Below are positions 3,121 through 12,872 of a DNA stretch of 64,000 bases, one piece after another (position 1 is the stretch's first letter; every line of letters starts with the position of its first letter). The notes below the pieces were generated by a model. It had not been told where the DNA came from. It ran no database searches and worked only from the letters and a program-made list of their open reading frames with translations. Made by a program: the position numbers and the translations under genes. The DNA comes from Methyloglobulus sp. (GTDB taxonomy: Bacteria; Pseudomonadota; Gammaproteobacteria; Methylococcales; Methylomonadaceae): assembly GCA_013141505.1 (NCBI GenBank), contig JABFQX010000056.1, forward strand, positions 1 through 64,000, in the 5' to 3' direction.

Positions 3121-3280
3121 TATCCCCAAGTTTATTCCCTCGCTTTGCCTCCCGACCTATTTAAGTTAATACTGACTTAAATACTCATGTTACGCACCAT
3201 CATAAAATTGCGAGTTGTTTTTACAGATGTGTCGCTACCGCGACGATTATTTAGAAACCAGTTCTCGCACTGGCAGGCGA

Positions 3281-3452
3281 GATACTTTCTTTTGCTTCGC
3301 CAAAAGAAAGTATCCAAAGAAAAGGCGCCCCGGATGCCGCTTGCTTCCTGTGCGCTGTCGGTTTTGCCGGGGGTTGCCAAAAGGGACTCCTGTCCCTTTG
3401 GCAACGCGCGGCTTCCCTGCCGCGCCCCTTCCGGGCTGTTCCCGACAAAACC
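3281..3452. repeat. Multi-hairpin dispersed repeat (REP-like)
   Basis: This 603-bp gap (3121-3723) contains no credible gene but holds a structured element. A perfect 14-bp inverted repeat with a 6-nt loop lies at 3281-3294/3301-3314. Further on, about 3359-3371 pairs with 3440-3452 (one mismatch) and encloses two more hairpins: about 3374-3388/3392-3404 and about 3406-3412/3418-3424. The whole would fold as a cloverleaf. Similar GC-rich hairpin blocks are scattered in many proteobacterial genomes, which I state from memory. The remaining 270 bp up to 3723 hold the upstream region of the first barrel gene; no clear promoter was picked out. Confidence 0.6.
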
Positions 3453-3723
3453 GCCAGTGCTCGGCGCGGCATACGGGAATTAAGCACCAACTGCGTAACA
3501 TCAGTTAAATAGTTAGAAACTTTCGCTCCGGTTCAGCCGCCATTCACATTCACATGCAATGATAGCTGTGCTGAACAAATACCGGATTTAAAACGCCCAT
3601 TCAATCATCATCGAATGGGCAAATGGACTTGATTTATTCCGTAGCAGCAAGGAAAAAATACCGCCCAAGAACCTCCGGATTGTTTGGTTTAATCAAAAAA
3701 ATCTAACTTTCTGGAGAAATATC

Positions 3724-4428
3724 ATGTTGTCATTAAAATCTCATGTCCTGATCCTGTCAGGGCTTCTTGTTTCTGCCACAGCCATTGCAGAAGAACACAA
3801 ATTCTATGTGCAGTTTAATGCGGGTGCGGCATTTGCGCCGTCAGATTCACAATCATTCGGCCCTTTTAATGGCTGTGTTGTTACGCCAAGCGGTTTTGGC
3901 TGCGGCAGCAATCTGACTGAAACTGTTAAGCAGCCTTATGATGCTGGTTTTGCGGGTAGTGTGGCGCTAGGGTATCGTATTGCCGACCAGCTTCGTATCG
4001 AAGTAGAAGGCATCTATCAATCCAATAACATGAATAAAGTAAATGTTTCTTTTTCCGGTGTTGAATTCGGGAATGTCCCTTCATTTTCCTCGCCATTTAA
4101 AGGCGAACGGGAACGCACAGCATTCTTGTTGAATGGTTATTACGACTTCAAAAACAGCACCGCCTTTACCCCTTATATCACGGCTGGTATGGGAGGATAT
4201 CATATGAGACTAAAAGGGGAGCGTAGCAGCGTTGAAAATGACTTGGACTTTGCCTGGCAAGCGGGTGCTGGGGTTAATTACAAACTGGATGACAGGATCA
4301 GCTTTGATTTGAAATACCGTTATTTTGGTGGTGCAGATGCTGAACTCCAAAGCCCAAATGGATTTTCAAATAGATTGTATGAAGTCGGCGACCATCAAGT
4401 CATGGCTGGCATAAGGGTTGGTTTTTAA
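3724..4428 (+). CDS. Outer-membrane beta-barrel protein, first of a tandem pair
   Basis: The 234-residue protein begins with a signal peptide (hydrophobic core LILSGLLVSATA, cleavage probably after AIA-E). Alternating hydrophobic strands follow, ending in a C-terminal aromatic residue (MAGIRVGF), the usual recognition signal for barrel assembly by BAM. The fold is that of small 8-stranded OmpA/OmpW-like barrels (OMP_b-brl type). The last ~110 residues are almost identical to those of the next gene, while residues ~38-105 differ strongly. A Shine-Dalgarno-like CTGGAGAAAT precedes the ATG. The specific function is unknown. Confidence 0.85.
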   Translation: MLSLKSHVLILSGLLVSATAIAEEHKFYVQFNAGAAFAPSDSQSFGPFNGCVVTPSGFGCGSNLTETVKQPYDAGFAGSVALGYRIADQLRIEVEGIYQSNNMNKVNVSFSGVEFGNVPSFSSPFKGERERTAFLLNGYYDFKNSTAFTPYITAGMGGYHMRLKGERSSVENDLDFAWQAGAGVNYKLDDRISFDLKYRYFGGADAELQSPNGFSNRLYEVGDHQVMAGIRVGF

Positions 4429-12098: not shown

Positions 12099-12530
12099 AT
12101 GAACCTATCTATTCAATTAGCAATAGGCATTGTTGTTTCTATCTTAATTGTTGTTATTGTTGGAAAATATTCTGAAAGAAAACAAAAGCAATTGCTGGAT
12201 TTGGCCTTTAAGGGCAGGGAATCATTAACCACAGAACAGTTTTATCAACGTTTTTTTGAAAACCAAGGCATACCTTTTGATGTGGTTGAAGGTGTAAAAA
12301 ACATTTTTTCTGAAGAATTGGCTATTGATTTCTCCAGGCTGCATGATGACGATGACTTCTCGAAAAATATCAGATTTATCTGGGATTTAGATTCGATGGC
12401 AGATGTTGAGATAGTCTTGGCGCTTGAGAAAAAATTCTCTATTAGAATTGATGACGATGAAGCAGCTAACATCCGTACATTTAGAGACCTTGTACATTTT
12501 GTCAATGATAAAACAAAGCGATCAGAATAA
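12099..12530 (+). CDS. Membrane-anchored acyl-carrier-like protein (DUF1493-like)
   Basis: The 143-residue protein starts with one transmembrane helix (about residues 5-22, AIGIVVSILIVVIVG), then a basic Lys/Arg stretch that would stay in the cytoplasm. Residues ~95-138 resemble the acyl carrier fold: LDSMADVEIVLALEKKF followed by an acidic loop and TFRDLVHFV. Ser99 sits where ACPs attach phosphopantetheine (D-S-L; here D-S-M). The similarity resembles the DUF1493 group, judged from memory. It follows acs by 11 nt, which suggests a link with acyl or acetyl activation, but a role as carrier is inference. Many residues upstream of Ser99 are acidic. Confidence 0.6.
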   Translation: MNLSIQLAIGIVVSILIVVIVGKYSERKQKQLLDLAFKGRESLTTEQFYQRFFENQGIPFDVVEGVKNIFSEELAIDFSRLHDDDDFSKNIRFIWDLDSMADVEIVLALEKKFSIRIDDDEAANIRTFRDLVHFVNDKTKRSE

Positions 12531-12608: not shown

Positions 12609-12872
12609 TTAACGTCTGCCGTTTCTTCCGGCAGTGGCTTCCTCAAACTTAACTTTTAAAGGTTTGCCGCAGTAAAGATTGCCATCTAATCCTGCAATCG
12701 CGGCCCTAGCTTCATGGCCTTCCATGCCGATAAAACCGAAGCCTCTGCATTTGCCGCTGAAAATATCGGCGATAAGCTGTACTGAACGGACTTTGCCGTA
12801 TTCGGCAAATAAGGCGGTTACGGTTTCTTCAGTGGCATCACTGGGAAGGTTTCCTACAAATAATCGTTTCAA
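12609..12872 (-). CDS. Single-RRM RNA-binding protein
   Basis: The 87-residue protein is one RNA recognition motif: RNP2 is LFVGNL at residues 4-9 and RNP1 is KCRGFGFI near residue 42. A short Gly/Arg tail (GRNGRR) ends it. Such small glycine-tailed RRM proteins occur in cyanobacteria and many proteobacteria, where they are often linked to cold or stress response. It lies 75 bp downstream of a cold-shock gene on the same strand, which fits a role in RNA handling at low temperature. Its RNA target is unknown. Confidence 0.9.
   Translation of the reverse strand: MKRLFVGNLPSDATEETVTALFAEYGKVRSVQLIADIFSGKCRGFGFIGMEGHEARAAIAGLDGNLYCGKPLKVKFEEATAGRNGRR

Follow-up and report, generated by a model that had tools for sequence, protein, structure and literature searches.

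An acyl carrier protein family with a predicted N-terminal membrane anchor

Acyl carrier proteins (ACPs) are usually soluble, and reach membrane enzymes by diffusion or docking. Those known to meet the membrane, AcpM on MmpL5 and DltC with DltB, do so by docking. The D-alanyl carrier protein DltC serves the membrane acyltransferase DltB; it lacks a membrane helix and is encoded in a dlt operon. Mycobacterial AcpM is described as a cytosolic protein that is kept on MmpL5 mainly by charge interactions (PMC12346298). Among the titles and abstract openings of the open-access literature searched, no description of a membrane-anchored ACP was found, and the phrase 'membrane-associated acyl carrier protein' occurred, in the portions of open-access papers covered, only as the cited title of a 1989 work on an ACP-binding protein.

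Here we describe a gene in a 64,000-nucleotide stretch of Methyloglobulus DNA (the window) whose product joins a carrier domain to a hydrophobic N-terminus (Table 1). We call it the tethered ACP, the tether being a prediction.

Table 1. The tethered ACP gene, its parts and its neighbours: positions in the window, strand and basis of each assignment
Feature	Position	Strand	Basis
acs, acetyl-CoA synthetase, 645 aa	10150..12087	+	ORF; named by reading; neighbour, not conserved partner
Tethered ACP gene	12099..12530	+	ORF, 143 aa; PF00550 above cut-off; full-length alignment with 7 other intact relatives
Hydrophobic stretch, codons 3-21, predicted membrane helix	12105..12161	+	Kyte-Doolittle mean 2.93; modelled helix 3-36, pLDDT about 55
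Basic linker, codons 22-36 (4 K/R, 2 D/E)	12162..12206	+	Charge count; suggests cytosolic C-terminal domain
Family-specific stretch, codons 37-62, from anchor to carrier domain	12207..12284	+	F37, R40, F48, Y49 invariant in 8/8; modelled helix 45-52
PP-binding (acyl carrier) domain	12291..12503	+	PF00550 match
Aromatic residues FIWDL (codons 93-97), just before D-S	12375..12389	+	Profile alignment puts the family's extra residues here; W95 invariant in 8/8
Ser99, predicted 4'-phosphopantetheine attachment site	12393..12395	+	D98-S99 invariant in 8/8 intact proteins
RRM RNA-binding protein	12609..12872	-	PF00076; directly behind acs in congener G007

Carrier domain, fold and predicted anchor

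The open reading frame starts with ATG, and no clear Shine-Dalgarno sequence was seen in the 25 nt upstream of it. A Pfam search assigns residues 65-135 of the product to PF00550 (E 7.3e-07), at 29.8 bits and hence above the curated cut-off of 20.8. The acyl carrier protein model TIGR00517 also matches (E 2.8e-11), but its 43.1 bits fall short of the equivalog cut-off of 70.45, so that the protein does not qualify as an AcpP equivalog; the NCBIfam ACP models as a whole score it below their cut-offs. Ser99, in the context WDLDSMADVE, aligns with the serine of the ACP D-S-L motif both in solved ACPs and in the genome's own AcpP, and immediately precedes a modelled helix (residues 100-113), just as the conserved serine of PF00550 stands at the start of helix II. 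Reading frame, PF00550 match and motif alignment thus bear out the initial annotation, which had picked out Ser99 in D-S-M as the pantetheine position; the comparison that it proposed with DUF1493 is not borne out, that family being absent from the Pfam matches of the protein up to E 10, a range from which the HMMER filters remove most weak matches.

The fold had been proposed as a check on the carrier reading, and it is predicted to be the helical bundle of ACPs. The AlphaFold model, made from 4 alignment rows and of moderate confidence (mean pLDDT 67.8), contains helices at residues 3-36, 45-52, 60-74, 84-94, 100-113, 119-122 and 128-142. Foldseek puts ACPs on top with high probability, but with no E-value below 0.001. 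In a second fold comparison carrier proteins and domains again come first (Z 8.0-9.7, rmsd 2.1-3.6, 71-84 residues), headed by an oxidase-ACP didomain (Z 9.7, rmsd 2.8, 84 residues) and continuing mostly with single ACPs down to Z 8. The model of a relative, the L042 protein, has the same helix order (mean pLDDT 64.4) and also finds ACPs first, but at Z 7.9 or less, with no match at Z 8. Such Z values are modest for a small helical domain, and stronger evidence comes from the sequence profile: among PDB sequences the family profile matches solved ACPs best, the top one being 5h9g at 6.5e-12.

Residues 3-21 are the most hydrophobic 19-residue window of the protein and its sole strongly hydrophobic stretch; the best window starting at residue 36 or later averages 1.13 on the Kyte-Doolittle scale. 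All eight intact members of the family described below have a hydrophobic N-terminus, the best window beginning at residue 1-4, with no Lys or Arg ahead of it and three to seven in the 15 residues behind. The positive-inside rule is the basis for placing the C-terminal domain in the cytosol. Identity between the window protein and the others is 9-25% over the first 42 alignment columns against 46-50% over the rest, so that the anchor is conserved in character and not in letters. One locus, L034, reads open through the hydrophobic stretch yet offers no ATG, GTG or TTG at which to begin it, and initiation at the nearest standard start codon would remove most of the anchor. The membrane helix initially annotated is a real hydrophobic stretch that relatives retain, from which an anchor is predicted; the single-span topology is read from hydropathy and charge pattern only, the anchor helix being modelled at a pLDDT of about 55. 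On these predictions the ACP appears to be fixed to the inner membrane, with its carrier domain on the cytosolic side.

Relatives and conservation

The family consists of eight intact proteins, including that of the window, and one broken copy in genome G202, which was excluded from the eight-row alignment. The other seven intact proteins are 39-43% identical to the window protein, and the relatives are scattered: apart from Methylococcales, the hosts comprise one genome from a different class and two MAGs, one of Rhodocyclaceae and one of Azoarcus. Within the window's own taxonomic family, 22 of 237 genomes pass 1e-10, but clear relatives, at 4.7e-37 or below, are confined to six (own genome included); in the remaining 16 the match begins only at column 45-63, with E-values between 2.1e-12 and 8.8e-11, and by range and score these were taken as ordinary ACPs. 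An order-wide profile search of 311 genomes at 1e-13 returned the identical six. Draws from the class and the phylum gave one genome in 369 (the window's own) and two in 398 (own and G862), respectively, and G862 was the only one found among the 78 genomes of its order. Three loci came from a scan of genome contigs, made with two peptide patterns only: those of the Rhodocyclaceae MAG, the Azoarcus MAG and a Methylococcaceae MAG, the last lying, as judged by length and gene content, on the same contig as in G040 and counted once. A single-sequence search matched 100 of 101 genomes, G040 being the only clear case besides the window's own (1.7e-27; next 5.4e-10). Left out of the count from that search were an ACP beside a ketosynthase (L005), a standard AcpP (L013) and a ferredoxin fusion (L022), together with weak matches containing internal stops (L004, L008 and others), which are absent from the order profile search at 1e-13. 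The fusion, at 1504-2277 of its locus (contig C73 of G044, a genome from the window's own taxonomic family), is a 257-residue protein in which 4Fe-4S ferredoxin motifs precede a C-terminal PP-binding domain with Glu in place of the pantetheine Ser (GADEYDQIEL), a substitution that rules out the usual loading of its carrier domain.

The serine at the pantetheine position, whose conservation the initial annotation had made a test of the carrier idea, is invariant in all eight intact proteins, in a D-S-[M/L] motif. Altogether 25 positions are invariant, among them, besides the F37, R40, F48, Y49, W95, D98 and S99 of Table 1, D85, D86, F87, N90, A101, E110, F113, E121 and A122. In all eight proteins helix I and the serine are separated by an additional four to five residues, rich in aromatics, in a stretch that aligns without gaps. 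Set against the two top-matching PDB ACPs, the family profile shows an excess of four residues right ahead of D-S; compared with the genome's own AcpP there are a net five in the same region, but the pairwise alignment sets the gap earlier in the loop, and the exact position of the insert is therefore alignment-dependent.

For the three closest pairs of genes, dN and dS are 0.16 and 1.02, 0.20 and 1.05, and 0.15 and 1.76, which indicates purifying selection in those three pairs; among the seven pairs involving the window gene, dS was not computable in six. The broken copy (L037, contig C1, 1864791-1865120) has an in-frame stop and no readable anchor and still shows D-S-L. The genome, G202, is rated 100% complete, in 6 contigs, and with its copy broken the gene is dispensable there. 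Taken on its sequences, the family of ACPs with a predicted anchor is real, conserved and rare.

Neighbourhoods and apparent horizontal movement

The two genes lie on the same strand, and the initial annotation had rightly noted the gap of 11 nt between acs and the tethered ACP gene, taking it to suggest joint expression and to hint at acyl transfer at the membrane. Acetate activated by Acs might on that arrangement be handed to the tethered carrier at the membrane, but we regard this as very improbable. A tblastn search with the window Acs found no acs in the 6.0-13.0 kb around each of the seven other intact copies and the broken one. None of the seven other genomes of the genus passes the search for the tethered ACP family; acs is found in six of them, and in none of these six is a tethered ACP gene seen behind it within the readable sequence (about 1.49 kb in five, 76 nt in one). 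Furthermore, the product of Acs is acetyl-CoA, for which no carrier protein is needed. For predicted promoters and terminators the counts were 5 where 5.6 were expected and 5 where 4.3 were expected, and numbers so near expectation carry no information on joint expression. An acs-coupled carrier is accordingly rejected, the linkage not being conserved in the stretches and congeners read, and the position beside acs is probably an accident of the landing site.

What that landing may have looked like is suggested by the congener G007, where 15 nt lie between the stop codons of acs and of the RRM gene, which converge; in the window the same two neighbours enclose 521 nt containing the ACP gene. 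In the other readable congeners the genes downstream of acs differ from those of the window. The simplest account is the gain of a single gene between acs and RRM, though loss elsewhere may also have produced the pattern.

Around the other copies the neighbours change from locus to locus. Upstream lie a HARE-HTH protein at 65 nt, with HerA on the far side (L003), a gene read as peptide chain release factor 3 at 330 nt (L035), an AcrB-type RND transporter gene at 15 nt (L036, in G107), a gene read as UbiA immediately before the copy (L034), a transposase gene at 163 nt (L042) and a Sel1-repeat protein gene at 35 nt (L043); at L052 a divergent polyketide-cyclase-like gene is found upstream and a ThiF-family gene downstream. 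At L046 (G192) the tethered ACP gene is followed by a gene (3181-4140) whose product has a legume-type lectin domain. All-versus-all comparison of 261 ORFs of at least 90 codons, drawn from nine loci with 12 kb taken from the window and 6.0-13.0 kb from each other locus (broken G202 included), revealed at 1e-6 nothing shared besides the ACP and one antisense shadow. With no further ORF of that size shared between the nine loci, neither a partner nor a substrate can be named from them.

Composition points in the same direction as the single-gene gain. The window ORF has 34.3% GC, whereas the mean for 83 segments of 432 bp, cut from 36 long window ORFs that do not overlap, is 47.1% (SD 2.4, lowest 40.7%), with none as low; an earlier control of 88 segments agreed. 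At 34% against 47%, the window gene looks horizontally acquired. Gene GC is below that of the locus in six of the seven other intact cases and equal to it in L003. The L003 protein, from a Methylococcaceae genome, shares 70% identity with the Rhodocyclaceae copy and 67% with that of Azoarcus, against 39-49% with the four remaining intact copies from its own family, and the tree groups these three at 97/94, its remaining forks being weakly supported; mis-binning of one contig in a MAG could in principle create this grouping. Overall, the sequences suggest that the family moves horizontally between lineages.

The scattered occurrence of the family, the foreign composition of the gene, its gain on its own and the decay of one copy would also suit cargo that is selfish or interfering, a decoy on a tether that diverts the phosphopantetheinyl transferase (PPTase), the partners of ACPs or acyl groups towards the membrane on behalf of a mobile element. 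The transposase gene near the L042 copy fits this, as does a match of the window protein to the C-terminal half of the phage family phrog_18343 (PHROGs; 138 positions, function unassigned there). From that match, members of phrog_18343 may share the anchor-plus-carrier layout, but no member was found. The window protein has no match at 1e-5 among phages or plasmids. At 1e-3 the L042 protein matches 17 plasmid records, namely 13 enterobacterial acpP genes, three E. coli records unannotated under the match and one Legionella acpP in a fab cluster, all taken as ordinary ACPs since none covers 80% of the query. Allowing E up to 1, phage records number three for the L042 protein and six for the window protein; in the three of these nine regions that were read, the proteins (81, 86 and 187 aa) have no comparable hydrophobic stretch, the highest values being 0.64, 0.95 and 1.44. 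Among viral contigs, 70 matches to two peptide patterns included no relative, PADLOC, a search for defence systems, matched neither the window nor the L042 protein, and no recombinase was seen by eye among the window ORFs beside the gene. We consider a cargo function improbable, if less so than a partnership with Acs.

Possible role and comparison with known carriers

The window's genome contains one match to PF01648, a PPTase, by which Ser99 could be loaded. It also encodes a separate AcpP-like protein with GADSLDTVEL (contig C3), so that the window protein does not pass as its fatty-acid ACP; with an ordinary AcpP and a PPTase already present, the tethered protein would be an extra carrier. 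The same genome (G000) has a short ACP-like protein with GMTSLSS on contig C90 and, on contig C94, four PP-binding domains in frames of 1844 and 3089 aa that are NRPS/PKS-like by size. The tethered ACP might conceivably be a carrier for those large frames, but this is very improbable: they lie on a different contig, nothing was found connecting the two, and no such frame was seen beside the relatives.

Carrier chemistry at Ser99 is likely. In the explanation we prefer, and to which we would give about an even chance, the protein is a free-standing, pantetheinylated ACP, held at the inner membrane by a one-helix anchor, that presents acyl groups to a membrane partner and spreads as a single gene. 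The host PPTase would load Ser99, and the tethered holo-ACP would pick up acyl groups from soluble fatty-acid synthesis and offer them, on the surface of the membrane, to a membrane-bound acyltransferase or some other membrane protein. The pantetheine arm may be pointed at the membrane or the partner by the aromatic residues that precede Ser99 together with the conserved stretch behind the anchor, and the gene would travel horizontally as a unit, landing beside unrelated genes. With the carrier domain predicted to be cytosolic, holding acyl groups next to membrane enzymes is the most economical role. Of what was first proposed, the tethered carrier survives, with its serine kept in all eight intact proteins and its predicted ACP-like fold, and the partnership with acs does not.

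The same protein could instead be a docking or regulatory subunit, binding a membrane protein structurally as AcpM binds MmpL5 and transferring no acyl group. AcpM complexes occur among the fold matches (Z 7.8-8.2); AcpM is described as anchored to the transporter MmpL5 on its cytoplasmic face (PMC12346298); and the 1989 title, as given in the reference lists of five papers, names acyltransferase/acyl-ACP synthetase a membrane-associated ACP-binding protein. The RND transporter gene of G107 would fit as well, but such a gene adjoins the ACP in only one of the eight intact loci. The invariant D-S speaks for a loaded pantetheine arm, though loaded ACPs can be structural subunits too. On balance we think a docking role unlikely, while ranking it somewhat above selfish cargo.

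Returning to the acyl-presenting carrier, a bolder form of it can be put forward tentatively, as possible but rather less probable than the general reading. Self-anchored, single-gene ACPs may move between Pseudomonadota lineages and reroute fatty-acid intermediates into the membrane acyltransferases of each host without a dedicated partner gene, the aromatic residues letting the arm reach a membrane-embedded active site. More generally, an ACP that has an anchor of its own, is conserved and apparently passes between lineages by itself would offer a natural test of whether location alone redirects acyl flux, and possibly a tool to steer acyl chains to membrane enzymes.

Compared with AcpP (TIGR00517), the tethered ACP shares the PP-binding domain and the D-S motif, and 26 of 68 aligned residues are identical to the AcpP of its own genome; it differs in its N-terminal hydrophobic helix, the stretch at residues 37-62, the four to five residues before the serine and its score below the cut-off. 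DltC, likewise a carrier protein, appears in the fold comparison (7r49 at Z 8.9, 4bpg at Z 7.9), but the NCBIfam model of DltC matches the window protein only at E 0.016. AcpM on MmpL5 (PMC12346298) offers the likeness of an ACP kept on the cytosolic face of the inner membrane; there, however, the ACP is held by its partner, whereas the tethered ACP is predicted to use a helix of its own.
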